Shown: one piece after another, positions 6,236-55,650 of the stretch | Position numbering within the stretch: the stretch's first letter is position 1 | Layout of the letters: the number at the start of each line of letters is the position of its first letter | From: Polytrichum commune | Taxonomy: Eukaryota > Streptophyta > Polytrichopsida > Polytrichales > Polytrichaceae | Reading direction: 5' to 3' | Assembly (NCBI GenBank): GCA_950295325.1 | Contig: OX485803.1 | Coordinates: 23,932,001 to 23,996,000, forward strand | Length of the DNA stretch: 64,000 nucleotides | Translations under genes and position numbers: made by a program | Notes under the pieces: generated by a model | The model's database searches: none | What the model was told of the DNA's origin: nothing | Seen by the model: only the letters and a program-made list of their open reading frames with translations

Positions 6236-6239
6236 CTTG

Positions 6240-25940: not shown

Positions 25941-26334
25941 GGTTCTTCGTATCGGGTGCTACTTCTATGTTTGCGGCTAATTGCTCAGATGTTGTGTTGT
26001 TTAGTGCAATTGGTGGGCATCCTCAAGTAGGAGCCTCGAGGAATTTGGAGCAGTTACGAGCTCCACATAATGATTACATGGTACACCTTGTTATTTAATT
26101 GCAACAGCATAATAGAATCAGAAGTGGTTAGTGTTCTTAGACCCCCCTTTGCATTAGAGCTCGAGTTGAGATCTTACGATTTTTGTGGATTCGATACTTG
26201 CTTTTTGGCAAGCTTCCATCTCAAGCCCAAAGTAATGAGAGCTTGACCAAACCTGACGCTCTCCATGGTTTGAGCAATTGTAAAGTGGCCATGGTTAAAG
26301 TGAGATATCAAAGTGGGAATGGTACTAATACAAC

Positions 26335-26745
26335 TAGGACAAATACCACTAATGAGTCATAGAAAGTTCTTAAGAGGATACAATGGCTTATAAATGAAAC
26401 AACATTTTTGTCAAGTGCCATGTTGAAGAAAGAAATTAGGTGGTGAACATCAGGACTTTCTGATTGAAAATCAGGTTTCTCCCGGATGAGTCTTGCATCC
26501 ATGCATTGTCCATAAAGCAGAAGCTTGTCTTGCACAGTATTGGTGATTGGGGCCCTACAAATAGGGCAGCTGTCACAATGCTGACAACATTCTATGCAGA
26601 GAGTTTCATTGCCACATGGTGAGTATACTTCGAACAATTCACCCACAACTCCGTAGATTGCGGGCTGCTCTGCAAATCTCTGTCTTGGCTTCACCACTTA
26701 ACTCCCACTGATGCTGAGAGCTTTAGGGCAGTCTTCTTGCTCATA
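26335..26745 (-). pseudogene. HOS1-like RING E3 ligase fragment, left copy
   Basis: Reading on the minus strand in two frames gives EAKTEICRAARNLRSCG, then CGNETLCIECCQHCDSCPIC with RAPI, then DKLLLYGQCMDARLI, then DVHHLISFFNMALDKNVVSF. These blocks and their order match the N-terminal part of plant HOS1: the EAK.E.CRATRDL.SCG stretch, an atypical RING, an LRLYYEC-like stretch and an FD.ALENNLVSL-like helix. HOS1 is a nuclear-pore-associated ubiquitin ligase acting in cold response and flowering. Here a stop follows SCG, a frameshift separates SCG from the RING, and the usual RING His is Asn. Only about 130 of roughly 900 residues remain. Confidence 0.68.
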
Positions 26746-29700
26746 GAAGTACAAGAGTTACCCAATCCTCAGTTGAAATGCATGCCATTTATGAGTGCAG
26801 CTTTGACAATGAGAACAAATATTTTGAAATAACAAATCAGTTGATATTGAGGGTTCCGATGTCTTGCATCAGGTTCATCTGTTGATAACATCAATAACAA
26901 CCACCAACACAAATTGCCATTAGCGGCCTTCAAAAAGCTGGTCTACATCAATGTGGATTGACTTAGCTCAAAAACAGAGGTCTCATTCACTCCACTAAAA
27001 TCAATATAAAAAAGACTCTAAATTACAGCTTTTACACTAAAGCTTGAGTTGAGAGCTTGAGCTTGCAACTGTTGGGAGATTGATGCTTTGATTTGACAAT
27101 GTTTGAGCTGAAGCTCAAAGTATTCAGAGCTTTCCCTAGTTTGAGCAAATCAAACTGGCAATGGTGAAGTGAGATATCAAAGGGGGAATGGTACTAAGAT
27201 CAATGTGGTCCAAAGATTGAGGGATTAGGTGGGTTAAGTGTCCCGAACAACACTTTTTCCAAATTAGATTGCATCATGTCACTATGAAGAAGTGACTTTG
27301 AAAGCCAACGTGTATAGTGTTCTGTGATATTGCGTACAGTTGCCTTTAGTAGAATATACAAGTAATGTTTCCTTGTCACATTGGAGGTGTCTGTATTCAA
27401 AAAGATGGGGAACCCTATTTACCCATAGTTTTTGCAATTTAGAATCATTAGATTAAATAAACTCGGTGGTAAATTCAATATCAAACTTGGATGGTGTCTG
27501 TTAAGCAGAGCATAATGCATGTGTTGCCCATGATGGGGAGCATGATTCTCTTGGTGGCAGTTGTCATCGTTCTTGGGCAATGGATCCAGTGTATAGGACA
27601 CGAGGAATGGGTATGCACCAAAAGTAATTGAAGAGGCCAGTTTTTGTGGTAATTCTTTGTCTCTTGAATGATTACAGAGACTCTCCCAATCATGTTATGT
27701 ATTGAATATAGGTTGGTGCCTATATTTTGAGCAAATCATTGAACCCCATCCTTACACATGGCATTGTGGTGTCTATTTGCAACTACAAGCCTTGTCATAT
27801 ATTGCTGATGAAGACAGATGTCATTTTCAATAAACAAAATGTGATCTACAAATGGGCAGAAGGAAGAAGAGTCTTGTATAATAAAGTGTATCAGGAATGA
27901 GGTGAACAATGTTGTATAGACATGGATTTTGGGGGGATGGAGGAAACCCAAAAATGTGAGAAGTTGGTTGTTGGCCACAAAGAATTGATGTAGTGCAAGG
28001 TAGCATGACTAGAATATGTAGTGTGCTTTCATTAGGCTTGTGGATTATATGTGCTTGTCACTACTTCTATATTGTGACATACATATAATAGTCTTTTGTA
28101 TTGTGCATGTTGCTTAATTTTGAACTTGAACTGTGGATGTAGAGAGGGTTGGGATTTTGAAGGTTAACAAACTCACTAGTAATCCAATTGCATGAGCACA
28201 AAGCAGTAATTATGTTGGGGATTCTACTACAAAACCAACATAGTTTTTGATATTTGTGTGTATTGACAAGGTGGAGCATGGACATTACTAGAGATCTTTG
28301 CTTCTTGCAACTTTGGAAGCACAGAGGACATCATTAAGTGCCTTTTAGTTTAAAATGCCTTGTTTGGTTGTGCGTTAGTAAGGCGATCTTAACATAACAA
28401 AGTCGTTTGCATATGAAGGTACACACTCTACCCACATGAAGTTGAACATTGTTTCAAGTAGTTGTTACATTGCCCGGCAATAGGGTATTGCAAAATCTGA
28501 TCACATTGTCATCATTGTCAATATCATATAGATGATGAGACAAATTGATTTGATCAAACATAAGGAACGAAAATACTACATATGTTTTCCACTTTGAGAA
28601 TTGCCAATACTCAACCTAAGGTAGTTGTTGTATTTGTTGGACTTGACTGAACCATGTCAACCTCTATTCATGATCTATGTTTGAACTCAATTCACATGAA
28701 GTTGCAAAAAAATATGATGTTATGGGAACGAAATGCTCAATGATTGGTATGTAGCATGATGGAATTTTGTCCGTCTTTTATGGTATGGACGGGAATATCA
28801 TTATCAACTCTCACATAGTGTATTGCTACATCTAATAGGATGTACTATTCCATCAGTAATCACAACACATGAAAATCTAGATAGTGAAATCTTCAATCCA
28901 AAATTTCTTCACCATGGGCATGGTATTGAGTTTTAACAACTTGTTTGTTGAGGTACATGTTTGTAAATTAAAGATCTATTTAAGTTATACCTCTAAATTC
29001 TTACCCATCTATGCAAATAGCCATAACCATCTTGAACCTCAATTTGTTTTGTTTCTCTTAGGTATGGATAGTAGCATAATGGAGGTTTCAGTAATTTGCC
29101 AAGTTCTAAGTGTTAGATCAAGTTAAACTTTTTATATGTAAGTTTGTTTTTCATGTGCCTAATGTTTGCAATACAAGTGTTGTAAGAAGCAAAGTTGGTA
29201 CTTGGTAAATTTGAAAGGTGCCACTCAAATTGTATTATGTTAAAATGCACAAGTAGGTAAGCAAGTATGAAAAGATAAAAGAGAGAAAGAAAGAGTTGAT
29301 TTTGAGAAGCAAAAGAAAGAGGAAAGCTAAGTGTGCCCACCAGAACATTCTTAAGGTTAAGGTTTGTTTGATGTCATGTGGCTTCCTTGACTGGCATTTA
29401 TCATCAAGAAATTGCTTTGAAACTTGTGTCAACCATATTAAACCATTGTATGAAACCATTAGAAAGCTTTTGGGTCACATGACAACTACAACTAGATGCC
29501 GAGGAAGGTAAACTACAATTGCACACCTGATTCTCAATAATGCATAATCAAAATTTGATGTAAATGTTTCATGAAAAATAAATACATCTGATCTACAATG
29601 ATGTCATGAGGTGTGCAAAAGTCTGTCAAAATTATAAAATTGATAGATTCACTACTTCAATAAAGTCAGTTTCTATTTATCGGATTTTACATTCTAATAG

Positions 29701-29823
29701 AGATTAGCATCTACACCTTATTATGAAATGTCATGTCTTCATTCATCAATCAATGTCAATGCTGTGAATTTTCCATTAGTATATAATGTTTCTTGTGGAA
29801 TTTACAGGTTTAAGTTCTAATGA
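26746..29823. other. spacer of left arm, no gene recognised
   Basis: Frames on the minus strand at 27200-27690 are partly conserved in the right arm (52120-52560 and 53580-54010). They keep no common frame and match no family I know. The paragraph-like motif of GCTCAAACC, AGCTC and TTTGGGCTT occurs twice within the arm (26220-26340 and 27040-27190), so the spacer is itself internally duplicated. Promoter elements of locus A should lie at the 3' end, but none is clear. Confidence 0.45.
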
Positions 29824-31530
29824 GCCTGCTCATCAACAATTATAGACGATCTTCAAGTAAAGGAAACCTTGAGTATCGCAATTGAGATTATTCACAACTA
29901 TATCATACCTCTTAGAATGGCAAATGTTTTGCGGCTAGCAATGGGTATTGTGGAATTTCCTGATATATTATTATCGGAAGAAGTGTTGAATAGAAGACAA
30001 TGTGAGAATTTGCTTTCCAACTTTCAAAAGGGTGTGGAAATATTACACAACATCACCAATGGTCCAACCCAAGTGTTTCATGCAGCAGAAAAAGATTTAT
30101 TTTGAATTGTGAATAAAGGAAGGTTACTAATTGAAGAATGTTGCAGTGAAAATTGGGTTGATGCTACAGTTATGCAATTGAACAATAGAGAGTGGTTCAG
30201 AGAATTACTTTCAAACTTTGAATCTTGTTTCCACACATTGTGTGAGATATCTTGCCATTACAATCCCCAAGAAAAGGAAAGAATTCTTGCAATAAAGGAT
30301 GACACAACATTCTATCCCACATCCACTAATGTAGTTGAAGAAGATCAGACTTTAATATGTGAAAGGCTTTCCAAGCATTTGGACTCATGCAACACTAAGG
30401 ATTGCAAAGATTGCATACTTGTGCGATACCTTGAGGAATATCTAAGGAGTCTACAACACGTTGAAGGTGGTGAAGTGGATAATATTGTTTTTCCTTATAA
30501 TTATCCTCGCCTAGAGTATGGAGATTCACCGAAGTTTTTGGGAAAATGTAATGGAGGAGTTGTATACTTGACAAATTGGTTGGATGTGAGGTGTGCAACA
30601 AAGGTGATTGACATTGGTGATCGTGAGTATGCAAATCAATTTTGGAAAGAAGCAAGTATTTTGGGAGGTTTGAATCATCCAAATATCATCAAGTTTTTGT
30701 GTTGTGGTTTTCATGAGGCCAACAACCAATTTGAGCTTGTAATGGAATTCGGAGAGACAACCCTATCACAACATTTAGGTGCACAATGTCCTCTGAAAGA
30801 GATGGATGCCATGGACATTATATTACAAATTGCAAGTGGAATGTGCTACCTTCATGACATGAAGGTAGCACATCGTGACCTAAAGCCCACAAATGTTGTT
30901 GTGACTCCATCAAATGATTCACAATTGGTTAATCTTGAGTGTATTGATGTGAAATTATTGGATTTTGGTATTTCAAAGGTGGAAGTGAAGCATTCTCCAG
31001 AAGTGCCCACGGGGCGAAACATAGGGACTTCTGGATACATGGCGCCCGAAGCCATGGCAAAGGAATTGTCGGAGGTTGATGCATTGAAAGCCGATGTGTT
31101 TAGTTTTGGCATGATGTGTTCCGATATTCTTTCAGGAGAGAAACCTTTTTTTTATACGCTTCGTGATTATTGTGAGTATATACATAAATCCAATAGGCCA
31201 AAGCTCCCTTCAACCTATTCAGAGGTATTGAGATCATTAGTGCATGAATGTTGGTCTTTAGATCCATCAAAAAGACCCACGTTTCTTGATATTCATAAAA
31301 GGCTTGCAAGACTGAAAAATGAAATGCTCAAAGGTTCGCTTGAAATTACAAGAGTTACAAATGACACAACGAATCTTTTTTGGCAAAAACATTTATCATA
31401 CAAATTATTTCCCAAATGCATGCAATGGTTGCGGTTTATGTTCCAGCTTCACCACTTTGACAATTCAACATCAATTTCAAGCATCCAAGAGAGTTGTAAT
31501 GATTTGTCATCATATCCGCTATTCATGGAG
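29824..31530 (+). CDS. PNL-A exon 1: helical N-terminus and protein kinase
   Basis: The first ATG in frame is 29917 (MANVLRLAMG), but the preceding helix (AIEIIHNYIIPLR) is conserved in locus B. A further upstream exon or start is therefore possible. After the internal TGA at 30103 the frame stays open to a GTGAGT donor at 31531. The kinase (about 30535-31320) shows a glycine loop LGKCNGGV, Lys in CATKV, Glu in WKEAS, catalytic loop AHRDLKPTN, metal-binding DFG, APE and DVFSFG. All key catalytic residues are present, so if translated it could be an active Ser/Thr kinase. A linker rich in aromatic residues follows before the splice. Confidence 0.8.
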
Positions 31531-31655
31531 GTGAGTACATTGTGAAATTGTGAATCAAGCCATAATATTTTGAAATAAATCGGTACAAGTTAGTGGACCT
31601 CCCAAGGTCTATCATTTGATCATCACTCACTTTGAAAATGTTGAAATTCTTGTAG

Positions 31656-32690
31656 GCCAACACCAATAACATGAGGGAATCATTGAAATTGATTGGAGTC
31701 CAAGAAAAACTATCCCAATTGGAAAAACAACTACAAAGGGCTGGCAGTCTAGGAATTGTGGGTATGGGAGGAATTGGCAAGTCAACATTGGCTAAAGCTT
31801 TGAGTGACCACATCTCCCATCACTTTGATGCAGTGTGTTTTGTGATCAACTTGAAGGATGAAATTTGTACATTTGCATTAAAATACAAGTCAAGAGACAT
31901 GCAAGACTCCCCTCCTCAAGCAAAAACATTGAGGGAAGCAAGTGATATATTGAAACATGTTCAAAAAACAAATAAAATACTCCTTGTGGTGGACAATGTG
32001 AGCAATCAAAGTCAACTACGTCAATTACTGGACGATAGCATGTTCGAAGATGTTGATGGCATGAGATTGATTGCAAGTTCTCGCGATTGGAACTCTTTGA
32101 AGCAACATGTACCCATGGCTGGCAAAGTAGACATGCAAACCTTGGAAGGGAACCAACCTATGAGGCTATTTTCAAGGCATGCCTTTGGGACAAACCAAAC
32201 ATGTTTACCATATTTGGAACATGTGGTTGAAAAGATTGTGAATGCATGTTGTGGACTTCCTTTGAGTTTGGAGGTGATGGGCACATGCATGCAAGGGGAG
32301 ACACGATTGAGAATATGGGAGCGAACATTGCATAGATTGTTGAGGGCAAGACATGATGGAAGTCCAAATGAGAAACTTTGGAAGACATTGAGGATAAGCT
32401 TTGATAAACTAACTATTGAAGAAAAAAACATGTTTCTAGACATAACTTGTTTCTTTTGCAAAGATGTGTTTACAACAAAAGAAACATTTCTTAGAATGTT
32501 CGATGGGAATGCCCGAGAAATCTTGGAAAACCTTCACAACAAGTCATTGGTAAAAGTGGACGAGTGGGATCATCTTAACCTGCACAATCAGTTGCGTGAT
32601 ATGGGTCGTATGATCACAGAAACAAAATTTCCAGGAACTCGACTTTGGGATTTAAGTTACCTTGCATTTGCCAATCATTGTAAACAAAAG
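31656..32690 (+). CDS. PNL-A exon 2: NB-ARC nucleotide-binding domain
   Basis: 345 codons are open between an AG acceptor (TTCTTGTAG) and a GTGTGT donor. The P-loop is GMGGIGKSTLAKAL, kinase-2 is ILLVVDNV, RNBS-B is GMRLIASSRDW, GLPL is CCGLPLSLEVMG, RNBS-D is FLDITCFF, and the MHD position reads LHNQLRDMG. RNBS-D and the MHD context resemble TIR-type NLRs, although no TIR domain is present. NB-ARC is the ADP/ATP switch of plant immune receptors. The Asp of MHD is replaced by Asn. Codons 70-165 or so are identical to locus B at the DNA level. Confidence 0.92.
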
Positions 32691-32861
32691 GTGTGTAATT
32701 TAAGTTTTTTGAAAGTTGATGTGTGATATTAAATTCCTCAAGAAATAAATGTATTAGGTAGCATAAGTTGTATTCTAGTTGTATGTATTGTTGTTCTAAA
32801 TTCATTTTGTCATTTGAAATGGAAAGAAATCAAACTTACGTGCCTTTGTTTATGTGTGTAG

Positions 32862-34766
32862 GGCACAAAACTTGTCCAATGCCTTTCATTCACGGAGTTG
32901 CAACACAAACCTCAGTATGAAGTAGATGTTGACTTCAAACCGATGGAAGAGCTACGTATATTAAATGTCCAATGTTGTAACAATATTGACCTACTTTCAT
33001 CTATTGTCAAAGAATCACCTAATCTAAAATGCTTGAGGATGCACTTTTCAACCTCGAAAATTGCTTCTTCAATGGAGAAAAATGATTTCATAGAGAAGTT
33101 TTGGAATCATTGCCAACATTATCTGCAAAACTTGAGCGTATTAGAAGTGTTCAATTGCAACTTATCGGGATCATTATTATGTGAAAATTGGAAGGGGTTG
33201 CCCTTGAAGGAAATAATTTTTTTGGATTGTGAAAACATAGACAACTTCCTCAATGAGGTTCTTAGGTTTTCCACCTTGGAATCATTGAATATCATAAGAT
33301 GCAACGACTTGAAAAACATACCTCATGGATTGAGCAACCTATCTGCCTTGGAGGAGTTGAATTTCTTGGAATGCGGGTGTTTGAGGAAGATACCAGAAGG
33401 ATTTGGTGGGTTGACGAGACTCAAGAAACTCACCATGCAAGAGTGTCAGGCTCTGGAGGAATTTCCTTCCGGATTGATCCATTTGGTTGCATTGGAAGAG
33501 TTAAATTTCTCGCTATGTCGGTCTCTGAGGAAGATACCGGAAGAATTTGGCGAGTTGACGAGTCTCCAAAAACTTGACATGTGGGAATGTAAGGCTTTGG
33601 AGGAGTTTCCATCTGGATTGACTAACTTGTGTGCCTTGGAGGTGTTGAATTTCTCGCTATGTCGGTCTTTGAGGAAGATACCGGAAGGATTTGGTGGGTT
33701 GACGAATCTCAAGATACTTTACATGTGGGAATGTGAGGCTTTGGAGGAGTTTCCTTCTGCATTGACCAACTTGTGTGCCTTGGAGGAGTTGAATTTCACG
33801 CTATGTCGGTCTTTGAGGAAGTTCCGGGAAGGATTTGGTGGGTTGACGAGTCTCAAGAAACTTGACATGTGGGGATGTGAGGCTTTGGAGGAGTTTCCTT
33901 CCGGATTGACTAACTTGTGTGCCTTGGAGGAGTTGAATTTCACGCTATGTCAGTCGTTGAGGAAGATACCAGAAGGATTCGGTGGGTTGACAAGTCTCAA
34001 AAAACTTAGCATGCAAGAATGTGGGGCTTTGGAGGAGTTCCCTCGAGGATTGATCAATTTGTGTGCATTAAAGGAGTTGAATTTCTTGCTATGTCGGTCT
34101 TTGGGGAAGATACCGGAAGGATTTGGTGGGTTGATGGGTCTCAAGAAACTTGACATGTGGGGATGCAAGGCTTTGGAGGAGTTTCCTTCCGGATTGACTA
34201 ACTTGTGTGCCTTGGAGGTGTTGAATTTCTCACTATGTCGGTCTTTGAAGAAGATACCAGAAGGATTTGGTGGGTTGACGAGTCTCAAGAAACTTAGCAT
34301 GCAAGAATGTGAGGCTTTGGAGGAGTTTCCTTCCGGATTGACCAACTTGTGTGCCTTGGAGGTGTTGAATTTCTCGCTATGTCGGTCTTTGAGGAAGATA
34401 CCGGAAGGATTTGGTGGGTTGACGAGTCTCAAGAAACTTACTATGCAAGGTTGTGTGGCTTTGGAGGAATTCCCTCAAGGATTGATCAATTTGTTTGCAT
34501 TGAAGGAGTTGAATTTCTCGCAATGTTGGTGTTTGAGGGATATACCGGAAGGATTTGGTGGGTTGACGAATCTCAAGATACTTGACATGTGGGAATGTGA
34601 GGCTTTGGAGGAGTTTCCTTCTGGATTGACCAACTTGTGTGCCTTGGAGGAGTTGAATTTTACGCTATGTCGGTCTTTGAAGAAGTTACGGGAAGGATTT
34701 GGTGGGTTGACGAGTCTCAAGAAACTTAGCATGCAAGAATGTGAGGCTTTGGAGGAGTTCCCTTGA
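32862..34766 (+). CDS. PNL-A exon 3: leucine-rich repeats up to first stop
   Basis: The exon starts after a TGTGTAG acceptor with a linker (about 33 kb, ILNVQCCNNIDLLSSIVKES) conserved in locus B. Twenty regular 24-residue LRRs then run from about 33323. Odd and even repeats alternate between an EGFGGLTSLKKLxMxECxAL type and an SGLTNLCALEELNFSLCRSL type, giving a 144-bp DNA supra-repeat. The frame ends at a TGA at 34764 (consensus CGA). LRRs of this kind face ligands or guard partners and hold the NB-ARC inactive. Such uniform repeats point to repeated unequal exchange. Confidence 0.88.
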   Translation, partial: GTKLVQCLSFTELQHKPQYEVDVDFKPMEELRILNVQCCNNIDLLSSIVKESPNLKCLRMHFSTSKIASSMEKNDFIEKFWNHCQHYLQNLSVLEVFNCNLSGSLLCENWKGLPLKEIIFLDCENIDNFLNEVLRFSTLESLNIIRCNDLKNIPHGLSNLSALEELNFLECGCLRKIPEGFGGLTRLKKLTMQECQALEEFPSGLIHLVALEELNFSLCRSLRKIPEEFGELTSLQKLDMWECKALEEFPSGLTNLCALEVLNFSLCRSLRKIPEGFGGLTNLKILYMWECEALEEFPSALTNLCALEELNFTLCRSLRKFREGFGGLTSLKKLDMWGCEALEEFPSGLTNLCALEELNFTLCQSLRKIPEGFGGLTSLKKLSMQECGALEEFPRGLINLCALKELNFLLCRSLGKIPEGFGGLMGLKKLDMWGCKALEEFPSGLTNLCALEVLNFSLCRSLKKIPEGFGGLTSLKKLSMQECEALEEFPSGLTNLCALEVLNFSLCRSLRKIPEGFGGLTSLKKLTMQGCVALEEFPQGLINLFALKELNFSQCWCLRDIPEGFGGLTNLKILDMWECEALEEFPSGLTNLCALEELNFTLCRSLKKLREGFGGLTSLKKLSMQECEALEEFP

Positions 34767-35226
34767 GGATTGATCTATTTGTGTGCACTCGAGGAGTTGA
34801 ATTTCTAGCAATGTCAGTCTTTAAGGAAGATACTGGAAGGATTTGGTGGGTTGATGGGTCTCAAGAAACTTGACATGTGGGGATGCAAGGCTTTGGAGGA
34901 GTTTCCTTCCGGATTGACTAACTTGTGTGCCTTGGAGGTGTTGAATTTCTCGCTATGTCGGTCTTTGAAGAAGATACCAGAAGGATTTGGTGGGTTGACG
35001 AGTCTCAAGAAACTTAGCATGCAAGAATGTGAGGCTTTGGAGGAGTTTCCTTCCGGATTGACCAACTTGTGTGCCTTGGAGGTGTTGAATTTCTCGCTAT
35101 GTCGGTCTTTGAGGAAGATACCGGAAGGATTTGGTGGGTTGACGAGTCTCAAGAAACTTACTATGCAAGGTTGTGTGGCTTTGGAGGAGTTCCCTCAAGG
35201 ATTGATCAATTTGTGTGCATTGGAGG
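34132..35226 (+). repeat. recent 720-bp duplication inside the LRR array
   Basis: The stretch from 34132 to about 34506 is repeated from 34852 to about 35226 with only about four differences by eye. Neighbouring supra-repeats differ much more. The offset is 720 bp, exactly five 144-bp supra-repeats, which fits unequal crossing-over in register. Confidence 0.85.
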
Positions 35227-37340
35227 AGTTGAATTTTTCGCAATGTTGGTCTTTGAAGAAGATACTTGAAGGATTTGGTGGGTTGACGAGTCTCAAAAAA
35301 CTTGACATGTGGGAATGCGAGGCTTTGGAGGAGTTCCCTCGAGGATCGATCAATTTGTGTGCATTAAAGGAGTTGAATTTCTCGCTATGTCGGTCTTTGG
35401 GGAAGATACCGGAAGGATTTGGTGGGTTGACGAGTCTCAAGAAACTTAGCATGCAAAAATGTGGGATTTTGGAGGAGTTCCCTCGAGGATTGATCCATTT
35501 GTGTGCACTCGAGGAGTTGAATTTCTCGCAATGTCGGTCTTTGAGGAAGATACCAGAAGGATTTGGTGGGTTGACGAGTTTGAAAAAACTCACCATGCAA
35601 GAATGTGAGGTTTTGGAGGAGTTTCCTTCTGGATTGACCAACTTGTGTGCCTTGGAGGAGTTGGATTTTCGGCTATGTCGGTCTTTGGGGAAGATACCGG
35701 AAGGATTTGGTGGGTTGACAAATCTCAAGATGCTTTACATGTAGGAATGTGAGGATTTGGAGGAGTTTCCTCCTGGATTGGCCAACCTATGTGCCTTGGA
35801 AGAGTTGGTAGTCTACAAATGTTGGTCTTTGATGAAGATACCAAAAGGATTTGGTGGGTTGATGAGTATGAGAAACCTAGCATGCAAGAATGTGAGGCTT
35901 TGGAGGGTTCCCTCGAGAATTGATCAATTTGTGTGCATTGGAGGAGTTGAATTTTTCTCAATGTTGGTCTTTGATGAAGATACCGGAAGGATTTCGTGGA
36001 TTGACGAGTCTCAAGAAACTTGGCATGTGGGGATGCGAGACTTTGGAGGAGTTTCCTTCCGGATTGACCAATTTGTGTGCCTTGGAGGTGTTAAATTTCT
36101 CGCTATGTCGGTCTTTGAGGAAGATCCTAGAAGGACTTGGTTGGTTGACGTGTCTCAAGAAACTTACTATGCAAGGTTGTGTGGCTTTGGAGTAGTCTCC
36201 TTCGGGATTGATGAATTTGTGTGCATTGGAGGATTTGGATTATCTCTATGTTGGTTTTTGAGGAAGATATCGGAGGATTTGGTGGGTCGACAAATCTCAA
36301 GGAACTGGACATTTGAGAATGTAAAGCTTTGGAGGATTTTCCTTTCGGATTGACCAACTTGTGTGCCTTGAAGGTGTTGAATTTTCTTGCTATGTCGGTC
36401 TTTGAAGAAGATACCGGAAGGATTTGGTGGGTTGACGAGTCTCAAGAAACTTGACGTGTGGGAATGTGAGGCTTTGGAGGAGTTTCCTCCAGGATTGGCC
36501 AACCTATGTGCCTTGGAAGAGTTGGTATTCAGCAAATGTTTGTGTTTGAGGAAGATACTAGAAGGATTTGGTAGGTTGATGAGTCTCAAAAAACTTGACA
36601 TGCAAGAATGTCAGGGTTTGAAGGAGTTTCCTTCTGGATTAATTAATTTGTTTGCCTTGGAGGAGTTGGATTTGTTGCTATGTTGGTCTTTAAAGAAGAT
36701 ACCGGAATAATTTGGTGGGTTGACGAGTCTTAAGAAACTTGACATGTGGGAATGTGAGGCTTTGTAGGAGGTTCCTTCGGGATTGAGCAACCTTTGTTCA
36801 TTGGAGGAGTTGAATTTCTCAACATGTCGGTCTTTGAGGAAGATACGGGAAGAGTTTTGTGGGTTGACGAGTCTCATGAAACTTTACATGCCAAAATGTG
36901 AGGTTTTGGAGGAGTTTCTTCATGATTGAGCAACGTGTGTGCTTTGGAGGATTTGACGTTCTCAATGCTTGGGTCTTTGAGGTACATAGGCAAAGGATTT
37001 TGTGGGTTGATGAGTCTTAAGAAACTTGACATGTGGGAATGTGAAGTTTGGAGATGTTTTCCTCTGGATTGATCAACTTGTGTGCACTGGAGGAGTTGTA
37101 TTTCTCATAATGTCGGTCTTTGGAGAAGCTACAGATGGAATTGTTTGGGATGACGGGTCTCAAATTCCTTGGCATGTGTGAATGTGGGGATTTGGAGGAG
37201 TTGCCTTTGGGAATGACCAACCTCTCTACCTTAGAGGAGTTGGATTTCTCAAAATATGAATCTTTGAGAAAGATATTGGAAGAATTTGGTGGCTTGACGC
37301 ATCCCAAAAAACAAAGCATGTGGGAATGTGAGGCTTAGGA
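34767..37340 (+). pseudogene. decayed continuation of the PNL-A LRR array
   Basis: About 35 further 24-residue repeats are recognisable downstream of the first stop. They are open again from about 34812 to 35744, then broken by stops and single-base deletions, and increasingly diverged after 36200 (remnants at 36387-36710 and 37120-37338). Long frames on the opposite strand exist here only because the 144-bp unit is a multiple of three. The right-most LRR remnant ends near 37340. Confidence 0.82.
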
Positions 37341-39720: not shown

Positions 39721-39753
39721 CTTGTTCAAAGGGACCATGCCAAAATTATCGCA

Positions 39754-39951: not shown

Positions 39952-39959
39952 TGACACAC

Positions 39960-43400: not shown

Positions 43401-44779
43401 TTGCATGGCGGACATTGAGTCCCCCGCTACGAACTATGGGGGGTGTCAGATCTGGGTTGGGGCAGTCTTCCAAGAAAAATTCTGAACCCGACTGAAAAAT
43501 GAAAGTGACATGTGTAAGGGAGAACTCTTGGCATTTATGATTACACTCTGACGTGAGTGTGAGAAAAAACAATATTTGAGGCTTGGCGCATATGTGGTAG
43601 CAATTTGGAATGGCACACAAATTGGCCTAAACTTATGTAACTTTGGCAAAAAAATATACTCATTCCATCAAGTATAGCTATTTTTGAGAGAGGATTTTTC
43701 CAAACAAGATGCAATCAAAAGCCACTAACGCAAAAGGTTGAACTTAAAGACCCTTGATGTTCTTATGCAAGTCTTTGTTTGTGGACTTGAAGTGGATGCA
43801 ATGGATTGGGCTACCATCTTCAACATTTGGAGAAACATATGAGACCAAAGGATACTTACGCTCTATTGATAGTTTTCTGTTACAAATCATGATTTTATTT
43901 TCATTATCTACAATATTAGATTTTTCTAAAACATTGTGTAACCCAAAATTGAGGTCACATTTTAGAATTAAATGTATATGTCAATTAACATTCATTTTTG
44001 TTTTTGAAAATGTCACGTGACACTTGGATTTGAAATTGAACGTCAAATAAAATTTGTTGAACATACACACTGCTTTCAACTACTGCTTGAGAGTCACATC
44101 ATACCACACAATCACATTTGAAATTCAACAAGTAGTCATGGCTTTAGATAGTTGAAGTTTAGGTTTGACAACCAACATACCATACTTGATTCTAGCAAAC
44201 CCATCCTTGGACAATGTGGGATTACTATTCAATTCACATATTTAACATTTGCATGAAATATCCATTTGGACCTCCCCTAGATTACCCACTTCACTATAAC
44301 TGATTATAGACTTAAAGGTAGAAATACAACTAGGAATATATGAATAATATGATTAATATATTTACAAAATTAGATTAAATAATACCCATACCTTATGTAT
44401 ATCTTATGATTCCCAAGGACAATTAATACCCCTTTTTGCACCCCGGTGTGTCCATATTTAACAATGAATGCACCCCCAACCTGAGGGGGTCTCGATAAAC
44501 TGTCGCCTTTCTTCAAGTAATCTAATGGCCATACAAAGAGCTAATCATCTTGTAGGATACCTGAAGACCATGGTTATCGTTGCAAAATTGGAGATGTAAA
44601 ATCAGTTTTTAGAATGAAAAGTTTGTCTTTTGGTATTCAACCGCAGTTACTATCTTTCGAACCTTACCCTTTCAAGACCATAGTAACTACTAGGGTAATT
44701 CTATAGTCGGAAGATAAGTTTGGTAGAGGAGAAGGGGACCTTAAAACTATGTTTCACATGGTCCGAGATGACCTTAAAC
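40497..44779. other. spacer, no gene recognised
   Basis: More than 4 kb of AT-rich sequence with short frames only. None shows a motif I can name on either strand, and I found no close repeat partner within the window. Confidence 0.4.
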
Positions 44780-44852
44780 TACCAGACGATGGTGGAGAGA
44801 TACCCAAATCTCAAGGAAGAGGTTGGCGGTTCGAATCCCGGCTATGAAATCT
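44780..44852 (+). other. tRNA-like / SINE head relic
   Basis: The word GGTTCGAATCC (44828-44838) is an exact tRNA B box (T-loop). About 45 bp before it lies GATGGTGGA, like the D-arm start of Leu tRNAs, and GAGATACCCAAATCTC could form an anticodon-type stem. The anticodon loop has the wrong size and no complete acceptor stem can be paired. It is therefore not a working tRNA. A tRNA pseudogene or the RNA polymerase III promoter of a SINE is inferred. Confidence 0.35.
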
Positions 44853-45495
44853 CCTCTCTACTTGACGGAAAACTTGTCAGTTGGTCAACTGCCTCCTCTG
44901 CTTTGACGTTGGTCTGTTGGCCTTCAATCTAAAATATATATATATTTCACATGGTTTAATGAAATAACCTTAACTGCTTCCTCATGAATAACTGATGCCA
45001 AGTAATTAGAATCAAAGAATTGTAGACTACAGACTCTCGATATGAAATGTGTCGTGGCCTTTGCTCATGTGCGGTGGACATTTGACGATTACACTTGGAA
45101 TAAAGCTACAAGACTATGGTCTGACAGATCAAGTAACAAAATAAGAAACAATTAAGGGAGACTAGATACCATGCAAGGGTGATAGCACTGCATTTTTAGT
45201 GTTATATTAAAAGACTAATTAATTCAAGACTATCAACCATACCAAAGTGCCCTTAGTTTTGGTAAATAAGTAAAAAAAAGATGCTATATGCAAGACAATT
45301 GGTGATGGTTGGGTTCATGATTACGCACAACACAAAGTCCAATTGAAATGAACTTATTGCCAAAGTATGTTTGGGTAAATAATGTCAGATTGAGAGGCTT
45401 TCCAAACCGTTTGGCTTGAGTTGTATGAATTGTCCACCCACAATCCTCAATACCTTGAAATGAACCTTAACATTGTCCTAATAAAACTTATATGA
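44853..45495. other. spacer, no gene recognised
   Basis: Includes a short AT run at about 44933-44945. No gene or clear repeat. Confidence 0.4.
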
Positions 45496-45499
45496 GACA

Positions 45500-46400
45500 C
45501 CTAGACCATATAAAGATCACCTCTAAAATCCTCCTTGAGTGTTTCCTTGGATTTTGTCTTATTCAAAATATGAACTACCAAATCCTTCCCGTATCTTCCT
45601 CGAAAATAAACACGAAGAGAAATCAACTCCTCCAAGGCACAAAGGTTGGACAATCCGAGACAAAACTCCTCAAAAGCCTCACAATTGCTCATGTCAAGTT
45701 TCTTGAGACTTGTCAAGCCACTAGATCCTTCCCGTAACGTCCTCAAAGATCGACGTTTCGAGAAATACAACTCATCCCATGCAAAGAGGTTGGTCTATTC
45801 TAGAAGAAACACCTCCAGAGCCTCACATTCCCACACCTTAAGTTCCCCAAGACTCGACAAGCCATCAACTTCTTCTAGTATCTCCCTCGAAGACAAACAT
45901 TCTAAGAAATTTAGTTCCTCCAACGTAGAGAGGTTAGTCGATCCGAGAGGAAACTACTCCAAAAGCCTCACTTTCCCACATCTTAAGTTACTTGAGACTT
46001 GTTAAGCCACCATAATCTTCCGGAAACTTCCTCGAAGACCGACATCTCGAGAAAGCCAACTCCTCCAAAGCACAAAGGTTGGTCAATCCCAAAGCAAACT
46101 CTGCCCAAACCTTTGAGCATTCCCACATATAAAGTTTCTTGAGACTTGCTAAACCACCAAATCCTTCTGGTATCTTTTTCAAAGACAAACAATGCGATAT
46201 ATTCAACTCCTCCAAGGCAAAGAGGTTGGTCAATCCGAGAGGAAACTCTTCCAAAGCCTCACATTCACTCATGTCAAGTTTTTTGAGACTCACCAAGCCA
46301 CCAAATCCCTCTGGTATCTTCCTCAAAGACCCACATTTTGAAAACGTCAATTCCTCCAATCCGTAGAGGTTGCACAATCCTTCAGGTATCTTTTCCAAAT
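45500..46400 (-). pseudogene. PNL-B LRR remnant
   Basis: About 12 LRRs of the same 24-residue type continue after the frameshift (KIPEGFGGLVSLKKLDMSEC and similar). A TAA replaces an AAA Lys codon at about 45988, and a one-base insertion follows at about 45965. Repeats are less uniform than in locus A, so this short array may resemble the ancestral state. Confidence 0.8.
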
Positions 46401-46844
46401 CAGTGCATCTTGTGATAGTAATGATTCCAAGGTTGAGAGTTTGACAACCTCATTGAGTAATCCTTCTATGTTTTGGCAAGATGAAAAGATTACTGCCCTC
46501 AAGGGCATCACCTTCAAATATTCACATGATAGTGATCCTGAGAAGTCACAATCAAACACTTCTAATACGCGCAAGTTTTGGAAATTAGATTGGGAACGAT
46601 TCCAAAACTTCTCGATGAAATCATTTTTCTCCATTGAAGGAGGAATGCTTGAGGTTGAAAAGTGCATCCTCAAGCATTTTAGATTAGGTGATTCTTTGAC
46701 AATAGATGAAAGTAGGTCAATATTGTGACAACATTGGACATTTAATATACGTAGCTCCTCCATAAGTTGGAAGTCACCATCTGCTTCATACTTAGATTTG
46801 CGTTGCAACTCTGTGAATGAAAGGCATTGGACAAGTCTTGTGCC
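46347..46844 (-). CDS. PNL-B exon 3: pre-LRR linker up to frameshift stop
   Basis: The exon begins GGC ACA after a TGTGTAG acceptor, as in locus A. It encodes the conserved linker (ILNVQCCHNIDLLSSIVKES, KNDFIEKFWN). At STLESL one base is missing compared with locus A, and the frame ends after about 20 unrelated residues. The intact linker shows that the deletion is local and probably recent relative to the duplication. Confidence 0.75.
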   Translation of the reverse strand, partial: GTRLVQCLSFTELQRKSKYEADGDFQLMEELRILNVQCCHNIDLLSSIVKESPNLKCLRMHFSTSSIPPSMEKNDFIEKFWNRSQSNFQNLRVLEVFDCDFSGSLSCEYLKVMPLRAVIFSSCQNIEGLLNEVVKLSTLESLLSQDALIWKRYLKDCATSTDWRN

Positions 46845-47015
46845 CTACACACATAAACAAAGGCACGTAAGTTTGATTTCTTTCCATTTCAAATGACAAA
46901 ACGAATATACAACAACAATACATACAACTAGGATACAACTTATGCTACCCTATACATTTATTTCTTAAGGAATTTAATATTGCACATCAACCTCCAAAAA
47001 ACTTAAATTGCACAC

Positions 47016-48050
47016 CTTTTGTTTACAATGATTGGCAAATGCAGGGTAACTTAAATCCCAAAGTCGCGTTCCCGCAAATTCTGTTTCTGTGATCATACGA
47101 CCCATATCACGCAAATGATTGTGCATGTCAAGATGATCCCACTCGTCTACTTTTACCAATGATTTGTTGTGAAGGCTTTCCAAGATTTCTCGGGCATTCC
47201 CATCGAACATTCTAAGAAATGTTTCTTTTGTTGTAAACACATCTTTGCAAAAGAAACAAGCTATGTCTAGAAACATGTTTTTTTCCTCAATAGTTAGCTC
47301 ATCAAAGCTTATCCTCAATGTCTTCCAAAGTTTCTCATTTGGACTTCCATCATGTTTCGCCCTCAACAATCTATGTGAGGTTCGCTCCCATATTCTCAAT
47401 CGTGTCTCCCCTTGCATGCATGTGCCCATCACCTCCAAACTCAAAGGAAGTCCACAACATGCATTCACAATATTTTCAGCTACATGTTCCAAATATGGTA
47501 AACATGATTGGTTCGTCCCAAAGGCACGACTTGAAAATAACTTCATAGGTTGGTCCCCTTCCAAGGTTTGCATGTCTACTTTGCCAGCCATGGGTACATG
47601 TTGCTTCAAAGAGTTCCAATCGCGAGAACTTGCAATCAATCTCATGCCATCAACATCTTCGAACATGCTATCGTCCAGTAATTGACGTAGTTGACTTTGA
47701 TTGCTCACATTGTCCACCACAAGGAGTATTTTATTTGTTTTTTGAACATGTTTCAATATATCACTTGCTTCCCTCAATGTTTTTGCTTGAGGAGGGGAGT
47801 CTTGCATGTCTCTTGACTTGTATTTTAATGCAAATGTACAAATCTCATTCTTCAAGTCAAATACAAAACACACTACATCCAAGTGGTGAGAGATGTGGTC
47901 ACTCAAAGCTTTAGCCAATGTTGATTTGCCAATTCCTCCCATGCCGATGATTCCTAGTCTACCAACCGTTTGTAGTTGTCTTTCCAATTGGGACAATTTT
48001 CCTTGGACTCCGATCAATATCGATGATTCCATCATGTTATCGGCCTTGAC
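47016..48050 (-). CDS. PNL-B exon 2: NB-ARC nucleotide-binding domain
   Basis: 345 codons are open between a TTCTTGTAG acceptor and a GTGTGC donor, the same length as in locus A. Motifs: P-loop GMGGIGKSTLAKAL, kinase-2 ILLVVDNV, RNBS-B GMRLIASSRDW, GLPL CCGLPLSLEVMG, RNBS-D FLDIACFF and MHNHLRDMG at the MHD position. The Asp-to-Asn change is shared with locus A, so it predates the duplication or was spread by conversion. The 288 bp at 47556-47843 read as identical to 31863-32150. Confidence 0.92.
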
Positions 48051-48167
48051 CTACAAGAATTTACAGAGTTAGTGATGATCAAATGATCGACCTTAGGAGG
48101 TCCACTAACTTCTCCCAATTTAATTCAAAGTGTTTTGGCTTGATTCACAATTTCACAATGTACTCAC

Positions 48168-49894
48168 CTCCATGTATAGCGGATATGATGATGAGTCAGT
48201 GCAATTCTCTTGGATGCTTGAAATCGATGTTGAATTGTCAAAATGGTGAAGTTGGGACATGAACCACAACCATTGCATGCACTTGAGAAGGACTTGCCAA
48301 AAGCTTGATAAAGAGTATGATAAAAAATCTTGCCAAAAACCACTGGTTGTGTCATTGGTAACTCTTGTAATCTCAAGCGAGCCTTTGAGCATTGCGTTCT
48401 TCAATCTTGCAAGCCTTTTATATATATCAAGAAACGTGGGTCTTTTGGATGGATCTAAAGACCAACATTCATGCACTAATGTTCTTAATGCCTCTGAATA
48501 GGCTGTAGGAAGCTTTGGCCTCTTGGATTTATGAATGTACTCACGATATTTAGGAAGCGAATCAAAAAAAGGTTTCTCTCCTGAAAGAATATCGGAACAC
48601 ATCATGCCAAAACTAAACACATCCGCTTTCAATGCATCAACCTCTGACAATTCCCATGCCATGACCTCGGGCGCCATGTATCCAAAAGTCCCTATGTTTT
48701 GCCCCGTGGGCACTTCTGGAGAATGCCTCACTTCCACCTTTGATAAACCAAAATCCTTTAATTTCACATTAATGCACTTGGAATTAACCAATTGCGAATC
48801 ATATGAAGGAGCCACAACAACATGTGCGGGCCTTAGATCACGATGTGCTACCTTCATATCATGAAGGTAGCACATTCCTTTTGCAATTTGTAACATAATG
48901 TCCACAACATCCATCTCTCTCAGAGGACCTTGTGAACTCAAATGTTGTGATAGGGTCGTCTCTCCGAATTCCATTACAAGCTCAAATTGGTTCTTGGCCT
49001 CATGAAAACCACAACACAAAAACTTGATGATATTTGGATGATTCAAACCTCCCAAAATACTTGCTTCTTTCCGAAATAGATTTGCATGCTCACGACCACA
49101 AATGTCAATCACCTTTGTTGCACACCTCACACCCAACCAATTTGTCAAGTATACAATCCCTCCATTATACTCTCCCAAAATATGTGGTGGATCTCCATAT
49201 TTCGGGTGAGGATAATTATAAGGAAAAACAATATCAACCAATTCACCACCTTCAATGAGTTGCAGACTCCTTAGATATTCCTCAAGGTATCCCCCAAGTC
49301 GACAATCTTTGCAATTTTCAATGTTGCATGATTCCAAATGCTTGGAAAGCCTTCCACATATTGAAGTTTGGTCCTCTTCAACGTCATCGATGGATGTGGG
49401 GCAGAATGTTGCATCATCCTTAATCGCAAGAATTCTTTCCTCTTTAAGGGGATTGTACTGGCAAGATATATCACACAATGTGTGGAAACAAGATTCAAAG
49501 TCCAAAAGTAATTCTCTGAACCACTCTTTGTTGTTCAATTGCATCACTACAGCAAGAACCCAATTCTCATTGCAACATTCTTCAATTAGCACCCTTCCTC
49601 TGTTCACAATACGAAATAAATCTTTTTGTGCTTCATTACACACTTGGGCTGGAACATTGGGGATGGTTTGCAATATTTCCACACCCTTTTGAATGTTGGA
49701 AAGCAAATTCTCACATTGCCTTCTATTCAACACTTCTTCCCTCGATAATATTTCGGGAAATTCCATAATACCCATTGGTAGCCGCAAAACATTTGCCATT
49801 CTGAGAGATATGATATAGTTGTAAATAATTTCAATTGCAATATTCAAGGTCTTCTTCGCTTGAAGATCATTTGTAATTGCTGATGAGCATCCTC
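48168..49894 (-). CDS. PNL-B exon 1: helical N-terminus and altered kinase
   Basis: The frame is open from just after an upstream TGA to the GTGAGT donor at 48167. The first in-frame ATG is at 49799 (MANVLRLPMG), with a conserved helix before it (AIEIIYNYIISLR). The roughly 200-residue N-terminus is predicted helical from its heptad-like Leu/Ile pattern. The kinase keeps LGEYNGGI, CATK, KDFG, APE and DVFSFG. Its catalytic loop reads AHRDLRPAH, where the canonical motif is HRDLKPxN. The Lys and the metal-binding Asn are thus both lost. By family knowledge this predicts weak or absent catalysis, that is, a pseudokinase. Confidence 0.87.
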
Positions 49895-52119
49895 AGTAGA
49901 ATTTGAACCTATAAATCCCACAAGAAACATTAAACACTAATGGAAAATCTACAACATCTACACTAATTGATGAAAGAAGATAGAAAATTTCATTATAAGG
50001 TGTAGATGCTAATCTTTATTCCAATGTGAAATCTGATGAATAGGAACTGAATTTATTCAAGTAGCGAATCTATCAATTTACAACCCCGACAAAATTTTGC
50101 CCACCCAATGACATCATTGTAGATGAGATATGTTCATGATTTCCTGAAGCATTTGACATCAAACTTCTATTTGTCATTATTGAGGGTTACTTTTGTGATC
50201 AATTTTCCTTCGTCGGCATCCAATTGTATGACCCAAAAGCATTTAAATGGTTTGATATAATGGTTTACGCTAGTATCAAAGCAATTTCTTGATGATACAT
50301 GCAAGTCAACGAAGCCACATGACATCCAACAAACTTGAGTCTTAAGGATATCCTAGTTGTACTAAGCTTTCCTTTCTTTTGCTTTCTAAAATGGACTTGT
50401 TTTTTCTCCTTTGATCTTTTTTTGCTTGCTTACTTGTGGATTTTAGCATAATACTATTTGGTATGAAGGTTAAGTATATGAAATCCGCACATTATACAAT
50501 GACCACTATAATGTTCACTTCAACTAGGTCATTGTTGTTATAGTACAATGGCACCTTTCAAAGTTACCAAGTACCAACTTTGCTTCTTATAACATTTGTA
50601 TTGTTCAAACATTAGGGACATGAAAAACAAACTAACATATAAGTAATTTAACTTGATCTAATATTTTTCAACTTTCCCAAATTACTTAAACCTCCATTAT
50701 GGTAATATCTATACCTAAGGAAAACAAAACATACATAAGTTCAAGATGGTTATTGCTAATTGCATAAATGAGTAAGACTTCCATAGATCTTTAATTTGCA
50801 AACATGTACCTCAGCAAATAAGATGTCAAAACCTCAATACCGTACCCAAGGTTAAGGAAATTTGGATTGGACATTTCACTATCTAAATTTTCATATGTTA
50901 TGATTATGGATGGATGGTACAACCACTACATGTAGCAATATACTATGTGAGATGATAATGATTTTCCCAATTCTTATTTGACAATGGAGACGGACAAAAT
51001 TTCATAAATGCTACAAACCAGCCATTGAGCAATTCATTCCCTAAACATATGATATTTTCTACAACTTCATGTAAATTGAATCCAAACATAAATCATTAAT
51101 GGATGTTGACATGGTTCATTCAAGTCCAACAAATATAGTGACTAACTTAAGCTGAGTATCCACAATGATAATTCTCAAAATGAGAAAAACATGTAATGTT
51201 TTCGTTCCTTTTATTTCATCAAATCAACTTGAGTCATTCTCTACATGACAATGACAATGATGACAATTTGACCATATTTTGTAACCTCCTATCACCAAGG
51301 AACGTGATAGCTACCCGAGACAATGCTCAACTTCAAAAAGGGAGAATGCATACCTAGACATAAAGACGACATTGCTATACTAGGATATCCCTTTTAATGC
51401 ACAACCGAATTCTCACAAGACATCTTGGACTAAAAGGAACTTGGTAATCTCCTCCATGCTTCCAAAGTTGTTGCAAGTAGCAAAGATGCCTAGTAATGTC
51501 CATGCTCCACCTTGTCAATATGCACAAGTATCAGGTTCTATGTTGCTTTTGTAGCACGGACCCCAACATAATTATTGCTTTTCGCTAATGCAGTTGGATT
51601 ACTGGTGAGTAGGTTAACCTTCAAAATACCAACCCTTGCTACATCCACAATATGAGTCCAAAATTAGAGGACATGCGCAATACAAGAGAGATTGAAAGAG
51701 GTGACAAACACATATAATCCACAAGTCCAATGAAAGCACACTACATGTTCTAGTCATGCTATCTTGCACTACATCAATTCACTTTGGCCAACAACCAATT
51801 TCTCGCATTTTTGGGTTTCCTCCATCCGCCCAAAATCCATGTCTATATAACATTGTTCACCTCATTCCCATGTGATACAAGACTCTATTGGATTCTTGTG
51901 CTCATTTGCAGATCAATTTCTACTTGTTAAGAATGACATCCATCTTCATCTATAATGTATGACAAGGACTTTAATTGCATATAAACACCACAAAGTCACA
52001 TGTAAGGATGAAATTCAACTATGTGCTCAAAATGTAGACACCAACCTATATTCAATACAAAACATAATCAAAGGAGACAAAGCATGTGTGATCATTTGAG
52101 TGATTAAAGAAATACCACT
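49895..52119. other. spacer of right arm, no gene recognised
   Basis: Reverse-complement counterpart of 27.7-29.8 kb. No conserved coding frame links the two, which argues against a gene here. The promoter of locus B should lie at its left end. Confidence 0.45.
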
Positions 52120-55100
52120 AAACCTAACCTCATAAACTTGCTTTTGGTGCGTACCCATTCCAAGTGTTCAAGACACTGGAACCATTGCCCAAGAACAATG
52201 ACAACGGCCACAAAATGAAGATCACCATGACGAGCATTGTGCTCCTCATCATGGGCAGCACGTGCATTATGGTGTTCTTCATAGACACCATCCAGGTCTA
52301 ATAATGAACTTACCACCGAGTTTTATTTGATCTATTGGTTCTAAATTGCAATGACTATGGGTAAATAGGATACCCTGGTTTCTGAATACACAGATGCCTG
52401 CAACGTTACCAGTAAACATTTCTCGTGTATTTTACTATATGCTACCGTACGCAGTGTTATGAAACGCTATGCACTTAGGCTTTCAGAGTTGATTCTTCAT
52501 AGTGACATGACACAGTCTAATCTGGAAAAAGTATTATTTGGGGCACTCCACCCATCTCACCCCTGAATCTTTGAATCTTAGTACCAGTCCCCCTTTCAGA
52601 TCTCACTTTCACCATTGTCAGTTTAGATTTGCTCAAACTAGGGCAAGCTCCGAATACTTTGAGCTTCGGCTCAAGCATTGTCAAATGAAAGCATCAAATA
52701 CCTGAGAATTGCAAGGTCGTGCTCTCAACTCAAGCTCCTACGAACCTTTTATAAGGTTAACTCATTGACTCTTTAGTTGTATTTGTCTTAGTTATGTTAG
52801 TATTCATTTCCACTTTTATATCTCACTTTAGCTATGGCTATTTTATACTTGATTAAACCATGAAGAGTTCCAAGTTTGGTCAAGCTCCAGGTTTGGTCAA
52901 GCTCTCATTACCTTGGGCTTGGGATGGAAGCTTGCCAAAAAACAACTATCACACACACGAAAATCGTAATATCTCAACTCGAGCTCTAGTGCAAAGGGGG
53001 TCTAAGAACACCAAGCACTTCTAATTTTATTCTGCTAGCTCTTGCAGAAGAATAACAAGGTGTACCATGGAAACATTACGTGGAGCTCGTAATTGTTCCA
53101 AATTCATCAAAGCTCCTACTTGAGGATGCCCACTAATTGCACTGAACAACACAACATTTGAGCAATTAACCGCAAACACAAAAGTAACCCCTGATACAAA
53201 AAAACCAGATGCTTGGGATTGTCTGAATGCTTACTTTGTGAAGGTGGAACCCTCCATTTCTGAGGTAGATGGTAATTGTGGTGGGTAGCCATGCTGCTTG
53301 ACACCTCCACCCACCAAATCGTCCACAGTTACTCAAACGCTCTAGCCAAATACTTTCTAAGACACAAACCAGTTGCCAACCGCCTCAAGTCTTTATCACG
53401 TGCAATATACTGAGGATTTCCCCAACACCAATAATGTTATAATAAGGTGATCAAATAATTGAGTAATGAAGTAGTCCAACACCACGTGTTAAGAGCAAGA
53501 ATCAGAACCCACAGCCCTTACTACCTGCTCCACAATTCTATTCACAAAATGAAAAATTGTCGAGGACCAGCCACTAAATTACTTTTGGTGCATACCCATT
53601 CCTCGTGTCCAAGACACCAGATCCCTTGCACAAGGACCATGACAACCACTCAAAATAAAGTTCATCATGACGAGTGTCATGCTCCTCATCCTGGGCAACG
53701 CATGCATTATGGTCTGCTTCACAGACACCATCCAGGTCTGATATTGAACTTCCTACCGAATTTTATTCAATCTTATGATTCAAAATTGCAAGGACTATGG
53801 GTACATAGGTTTCCCTAGCTTTTTGAATACAGACATCGGCAACGTTACAAGAGAACGTTACTTGTATATTCTACTAAAGACCACTGTACGCAATATCACA
53901 GCACACTATTGCACATCCACTTTCAGTCTGAAAAGATGTTGTTCAGGACACTTAAGCCATCTAATCCCTGAATCTTTGGACCACATCGATAGGAGTACCA
54001 TCCCCCCTTTGATATCTCACTTCACCATTGCCAGTTTGAATTGCTCTGATGTTCAGCTCAAACATTGTCAAATCAAAGCACCAATCTCCCGACAGTTGCA
54101 AGCTCAAGCTCTCAACTCAAGCTCTAGTGCAAAACATGTTGTGATTTAGAAACTTCTTTATATTGATTCTAGTGGAGTGGATATGACCTTTTTTTTTTTA
54201 GCTAAGTCAATCCAAATTGATGTAGACCAGCTTTTGAAAGGCCGCTAATGGCAATTTGTGTTGGTGTTTGTTATTGGTGTTATCAACAGATGAACCTGAT
54301 GCATCAAATGGGATTCCTCAATAGCAAGTGATTTGTAATTTCAGAATATTTATTCTCATCGCCAAAGTTGTACTCATAAATGACATGCATTTAACTAAGG
54401 AGGATTGTGTAACTCTTATACTTCTGTGTTCAAGAAGGTTGCCTTGAAGCGCTTAGCATCACTGAGTTAAGTCGTGAAGCCAAGACAGAGATTTGCAGAG
54501 CAACCCGTGATCTACAAAGTTGTGGGTGGCCATGCAAGTCTTTGCATGGAATGTTGTCAACATTTTGAAAGCTGCCTTGTTTGTAGGGCCCCAATCACCA
54601 ATATTGTGCAAGACAAGCTTCGGCTTTATGAACAGTGCATGGATGGAGTACTCATCGGGGAGAAACATGATTCTAAATAAGAAAGTCATGATGTTCACCA
54701 CCTAATTTCTTTCTTCGACATGGCACTTGACAACGATCTTGTTTCATTGATATGCCACTGTATCCTCTCATGAACCTTTCGTGAAAATTAACTCATGGAC
54801 TCGTTAGTTGTATTTGTCCTAGTTGTATTAGTACCATTCCTGCTCTCATATCTCACTTTAGCCATGGCCACTTTACACTTGCTCAAACCATCGAGAGCTC
54901 CAGGTTTAGTCAAGCTCTCCTTGCTTTGGGCTTGGGATGGAAGCTTACCAAAATCAAGCATCAGGCCCACAAAAATCCTAATACCTCAACTCGAGCTCGT
55001 CCTTGTCAGAAATCCTAGCTTGGTTATCTAAATTTCGCTCGATGTGCTCCAAATTACAGAGCAAACTCTAGTGCAAAGGGGGTCTAAGAACACCGACCAC

Positions 55101-55650
55101 TTCTGATTCTATTCCACTATCGCAGTTGAATAACAAGGTGTGCCATGGAATCATTACATGGAGCTCGTAACTGCTCCAAATTCCTCAAGGCTCATGCTTG
55201 AGGATGCCCACTAATTGCAATAAACAACACAACATCTAAGCAATTAACCGCAAACACAGAAGTAGCCCCCAATACAAAGAACGAGAGGGCTTGGGGTTGT
55301 CTGAATGTTTACTTTGTGAAGGTGGAACCCTCCATTTCTGAGGCAGATGGTAATTGTGGTGGGTCGCCCTGCCGCTTCACACTTCCACCCAACAAATCGT
55401 CCACAGTCACTCCAACGTCCCAGCCAGATACCTTCTGTAACGCAAACCAGCTGCCAAGCGCCTCAAGTCTCCATCACCCACAATATACTGAGGATTCCCC
55501 CCAACACCCAGCAATATATGTATTGTTAAGGTGACCAAATAATCGAGTAATGGAGCAGTCCAACATCACATGGTAAGAACACGATTCAGAACCCACACTC
55601 CCTACTACCTGCTCCACAATTCTATTCAGAAAATGGCATGTAGTGGAGGA
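52120..55650 (+). repeat. tandem duplication nested in right arm
   Basis: Two head-to-tail units, about 1.45 kb and 2.08 kb, begin near 52120 and 53576. They share the CATACCCATTCC, ATTATGG, GGTCTAAGAACACC and ACAACACAACAT blocks in order. The first unit lacks about 650 bp that would include the HOS1-like exon. The left arm has a single unit, so this duplication or the deletion happened after the arms formed. Confidence 0.75.
54435..54780 (+). pseudogene. HOS1-like RING E3 ligase fragment, right copy
   Basis: One frame gives ITELSREAKTEICRATRDLQ then SCG. Another frame continues GGHASLCMECCQHFESCLVC and RAPI, then DKLRLYEQCMDGVLI. After a stop comes DVHHLISFFDMALDNDLVSL. The blocks and their order match HOS1 and the left copy at 26335-26745. 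This copy keeps the RING His (GGHASLC) but has lost bases between SCG and the RING, and the CPIC pair reads CLVC. It is non-functional. Its presence in both arms shows the fragment was part of the ancestral segment. Confidence 0.68.

Follow-up and report, generated by a model that had tools for sequence, protein, structure and literature searches.

Mosses carry a PNL class of genes (PK-NBS-LRR), in which kinase and NBS are separated by a phase-0 intron (Xue et al. 2012, PMC3352924), and the portion of that report drawn on here describes many PNLs of P. patens as truncated, with 6 of 45 complete. The family described below resembles that class in its kinase–NBS–LRR order, phase-0 intron and many truncated members, and adds to that part of the published description (PMC3352924) a scrap of HOS1 upstream of most close copies and LRR arrays of up to 48 units. 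In melon, the Vat NLR cluster, in the sections of its description considered here, has homologs on both strands, pseudogenes and changes in LRR repeat number that were attributed to unequal crossover or conversion (PMC8012345). The present cluster is alike in the first three respects, but Vat has 1–7 motifs of 65 aa (PMC8012345), against arrays here that reach 48 units of 48 aa. In the portions consulted of the literature on NLR inverted-repeat siRNA, moss small RNA and moss NLR genomes (including PMC11850516), a layout like the present one was not found.

We analysed a 64,000-nucleotide stretch of the Polytrichum commune genome (408 Mb), at positions 23932001–23996000 of contig C1 and hereafter called the window, in which two kinase–NB-ARC–LRR genes, L (left) and R (right), face each other. 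At the rice Lgc1 glutelin locus, two related genes reportedly stand tail to tail, joined by a deletion, and silencing is said to have been shown. Both pairs, Lgc1 by repute, are tail-to-tail relatives open to fold-back RNA on read-through; the reported deletion joins the Lgc1 genes, whereas L and R are separated by an 8.2-kb spacer. Our preferred account, to which we give a probability of about 0.75 as a whole, is that L and R would be two damaged members of a dispersed kinase–NBS–LRR (PNL-type) family, placed tail to tail within a cluster that rearranges quickly, not closest relatives and later subject to conversion, with any double-stranded RNA a by-product.

Results

Layout of the locus

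The first-pass annotation described arms in opposite orientation, each with a HOS1 fragment and a kinase–NB-ARC–LRR gene, around a spacer of about 8 kb, and BLAST and domain matches confirmed that this layout is real. Positions 25942–34127 are homologous on the opposite strand to 55282–45577 (BLAST E 0.0, beyond chance), and the flanks match as well as the genes; a match confined to the genes had been named beforehand as the refuting outcome. Each arm holds one HOS1 scrap and one gene, and the genes do point at each other, converging across the spacer at 37416–45576. The flank upstream of L (25942–29916, plus strand) corresponds in opposite orientation to that of the right arm (49800–55282, minus strand), which contains an extra internal duplication, pieces of 52135–53574 recurring in 53576–55658. 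Identity between the arms was 86.0% (6,261 of 7,282 aligned bases; left side 25900–33325); in steps of 200 columns it was 72–93%, mostly near 80%, in the flank, 84–94% in the kinase exon and 95–97% in the NB-ARC exon at 31831–32630, falling again at the LRR start.

Within the spacer, 43501–44761 and 44941–45075 match the flank of two further family copies, P and P'. Positions 39959–40497 hold a repeat of about 540 bp that looks like a young, high-copy element, with at least 37 copies at 97–99% on contigs C1–C7 among the best 40 of 16,405 candidates scored. Elsewhere in the window, 6001–8000 has a strong GC skew of −0.496, the other 2-kb steps ranging from −0.26 to +0.38.

Gene structure and damage

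Pfam matches to kinase, NB-ARC, Roq1-type winged-helix and LRR domains were found in both genes. In L (plus strand), exon 1, encoding the kinase, spans 29917–31530 (1,614 nt; Pkinase 6.9e-42 over 30106–31542) and has a stop at codon 63. Exon 2, encoding NB-ARC and winged helix, is open over 31656–32690 (NB-ARC 1.7e-23) between predicted phase-0 introns, the splice sites being read by eye and the intron phase taken from genomic sequence rather than cDNA. From 33327 on, the LRR exon (32862–37365) carries 28.1 units of 144 bp; its first stop comes at 34764, after 634 aa, with more stops beyond. In R (minus strand), exon 1 (48168–49799; Pkinase 6.2e-40) and exon 2 (47016–48050; NB-ARC 6.4e-23 for 46977–48050) are both open. 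Its LRR exon (45577–46844), with 5.6 units of 144 bp against the 28.1 of L, is open from 46844 to 46350, where the frame ends after 165 aa, and resumes in another frame at 45988–46449, with LRR matches above cut-off in two frames. Both genes are broken, L by its stops in exon 1 and the LRR exon and R by its LRR frame change. The order of N-terminal kinase, NB-ARC and LRR in both, together with the predicted phase-0 intron between kinase and NBS, fits the moss PNL class; an NCBIfam search added nothing useful.

L is most likely a pseudogene. Because exons 1 and 2 of R are open, R may still work, and it might yet encode a kinase–NB-ARC protein whose LRR would be short and whose kinase loop would be altered. 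This catalytic loop reads HRDLRPAH in R and P and [HY]RDLKPxN in the seven other copies that have exon 1; the Asn altered in R and P matters for catalysis. Damage was also seen elsewhere in the family: codon 200 is a stop in P, as is exon 2 codon 324 in Q (another nearby copy), and exon 1 of copy C6a is frameshifted.

LRR array length probably changed by unequal crossing-over. The 144-bp arrays of copies C6b and C1b number 48.0 and 37.4 units, and their LRR exons stay open for 2,276 and 1,892 aa; exons 1 and 2 are open in these copies too, and their LRR domains would be unusually long if expressed.

A dispersed chimeric unit

With the left NB-ARC exon as query, at least 40 copies were found genome-wide (the best 40 of 179 first-look candidates scored). 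At least 20 were close, at 88–100% on C1, C5 and C6, and the other 20 listed were at 78–80% on C1, C2, C3, C4 and C6. Among the best 40 of 389 candidate HOS1-region matches, one lay no more than 10 kb upstream in 17 of the 20 close copies, both arms included (the exceptions being C1:23572938, C6:42741838 and C6:42095997), and within 10 kb in none of the 20 copies at 78–80%. Nine further copies were retrieved; P and P' were near-identical, leaving eight for comparison, seven of them with flank, which copy S lacks.

The scrap derives from the RING exon region and lies at 26357–27014 in the left arm (minus strand; 81.0% to C1:24291399–24292080) and at 54146–54824 in the right (plus strand; 77.4% to C1:24292087–24291359). 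In Pfam, the left-arm scrap gave only a weak RING match, below cut-off (ORF 26311–26697). An open RING exon at C1:24291412–24291822 adjoins the single genome match to ELYS, C1:24288477–24288872 (two candidates scored), and since HOS1 joins RING and ELYS-like parts, we take C1:24288477–24291822 to be HOS1. This locus, about 0.3 Mb past the window in the same cluster, is likely the parent of the scrap, and its RING exon was among the 17 matches that the scrap gave at protein level. The stretch matched extends from 24291359–24291399 to 24292080–24292087 in L, R, P, C6a and C6b; C1a, C1b and C5a have only the side ending at 24292081, and Q only the opposite side. The simplest reading of these limits is that the scrap would have been captured once, before dispersal.

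Each arm would be a copy of one chimeric unit, which combines a kinase-NLR gene with a flank and a HOS1 scrap no longer than about 0.7 kb. Copies were observed on at least three contigs, over which the unit probably multiplied by segmental duplication. As the whole unit is common to the family, neighbours in opposite orientation resemble an inverted duplication with matching flanks.

Relationships of the two arms

The pair had been called an inverted duplication. The arms are homologous on opposite strands, flanks included, but neither proved to be the other's closest relative, and to read the two as a single local duplication is misleading. Flank identity was 80.0% between L and R, 98.0% between R and P (at C1:24.08 Mb) and 85.0% between L and Q (at C1:24.16 Mb), the sister of the right arm being P, 0.1 Mb off. 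Against five distant copies, megabases away or on other contigs, L scored 79.0–80.4% and R 81.4–83.1%. In unrooted trees of 9 or 10 of the at least 40 copies, the AU test ruled against an L–R sister pair in four of the five blocks (flank, p = 5.6e-56; exon 1, 1.2e-33; exon 2 with intron 2, 8.9e-4; LRR start, 3.2e-13). The exception was a 288-bp tract of exon 2, in which R and P as sisters were not rejected either (AU p = 0.18). AU values for exon 1 were unreliable for two trees of equal likelihood, and this exon was retested under other constraints. Flank, exon 1 and LRR start each rejected a clade of L, R and P, which exon 2 and the tract did not; with Q added, so that all four local copies form the clade, none of the five blocks gave a rejection.

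The flank identities and the trees reject a recent inverted duplication, with neither L nor R as the other's nearest relative. If an inverted duplication did make the pair, its age would be about that of the spread to other contigs. L itself is, on these comparisons, a mosaic, with a Q-like flank, an exon 1 that goes with the distant copies, an R/P-like exon 2 and an LRR start nearer to S and the distant copies. Long pieces of the window at 43.5–64 kb match 24.097–24.133 Mb, around P', at 93–95% in opposite orientation, along with shorter repeated pieces of lower identity.

A near-identical inverted duplication lies 67 kb past the window (C1:24062755–24096382 and 24114971–24148594), with 33.6-kb arms that are 99.964% identical (6 mismatches, 6 gap positions) and a spacer of 18.6 kb. 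P and P', the kinase-NLR relatives of L and R, sit in its arms (24.06–24.15 Mb), pointing outwards. A 709-bp repeat abuts the outer end of its right arm and has an inverted partner, 95.2% identical, at 24097018–24097725. It is possible that this duplication is an assembly error.

Exchange within the NB-ARC exon

L at 31863–32150 (plus strand) and R at 47843–47556 (minus strand) form a perfect run of 288 nt. P, the sister of R, differs from both at 7 of the 288 sites, where the majority of six other copies agrees with P at three, with L and R at three and with neither at one. R and P agree against L at 0 of 288 sites in the tract, at 27 of 207 and at 24 of 573 sites in what remains of exon 2, and at 371 of 1,962 in the flank. 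In a permutation test of our own, written for this analysis (2,000 shuffles), the L–R run ranked first among 36 pairs, with a global p of 0.0005, the floor of the test, and P–Q ranked second (0.008). When only third positions and introns were used, P–Q came first (0.011) and L–R second (0.026). We rejected selection alone as the cause of the identity, as the run persists at third positions and introns and P departs from it.

These patterns suggest a later exchange by gene conversion, over at least 288 bp of the NB-ARC exon, between L and R or involving a common source. Such exchange, as read from the sequences compared, is general across the cluster and nothing special to the facing pair. In copy S (C1:23.57 Mb), intron 2 is 94–95% like those of L, R and P and the tract only 84.7%, a contrast that reads as another sign of exchange.

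Capacity for double-stranded RNA

Fold-back RNA over the gene exons, as the first-pass annotation had proposed, is physically possible. The arms share 49 perfect runs of at least 21 nt (1,899 nt in total, the longest being the 288-nt tract), and 2,036 of 9,075 windows of 21 columns have at least 20 matches. L contains 3,387 21-mers, of which 819 occur in R, 841 in P and 399–582 in each of seven other copies; by this count R, which faces L, is no nearer to it than P is. Between 189 and 623 of the 819 were found in each of the eight other copies examined. Neighbouring family pairs less than 200 kb apart (n = 19) comprised 15 direct, 2 convergent and 2 divergent; the facing layout is therefore not recurrent.

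Discussion

Alternatively, the local cluster might have begun with an ancient inverted duplication that produced a convergent pair, one gene L/Q-type and the other R/P-type, later copied as a pair. Since the clade of the four local copies withstood every block and the trees are unrooted, such an origin is possible, and the neighbours P' (plus strand) and Q (minus strand) are also convergent, ordered and oriented as R and L are when read in reverse. Against it, R–P at 98.0% and L–Q at only 85.0% in the flank mean that a single duplication of the pair needs later replacement to fit, the P'–Q spacer has no stretch matching window 37416–43500, and the clade of L, R and P was rejected in three blocks; we regard it as unlikely. 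As a single duplicated block, the two convergent pairs were only partly consistent in flank identities and spacer. The unit is quite unlikely to be a mobile element with HOS1 and a kinase-NLR gene as captured cargo, even though its copies on C1, C5 and C6 have similar spacing and the scrap's end points recur in five units. Unit copies match far past the unit limits, and comparison of copies found no transposon termini, the 5' end lying beyond the compared reach; the sole edge common to three copies, a downstream one, was rejected as a terminus, full-length matches running across it at five places, the query's own included.

A working source of siRNA would require that read-through yields fold-back or sense–antisense RNA, which is diced and dampens the receptor family. 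The perfect duplex available between the arms and the occurrence of their common 21-mers in all eight other copies would suit this, but arms only about 80% alike in the flank, the length of the spacer, the larger share of L's 21-mers in P, which does not face it, and the predominance of direct pairs make it very unlikely. A pair of receptor relics now acting as an RNA regulator, in which conversion would maintain the perfect 288-bp NB-ARC duplex and its RNA would dampen the entire PNL family, is just as hard to credit. We favour the reading of L and R as damaged members of a dispersed family, in which double-stranded RNA from the pair, if any, would be a by-product.

Where an entire unit is dispersed as a family, matching flanks do not establish that a local inverted duplication took place, and the locus documents exchange between facing NLR relics. 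With the HOS1 locus that was the likely source of the scrap, an inverted duplication of very recent date and relatives with very long LRR arrays, the cluster is a place to follow the birth and death of kinase-NLR genes.
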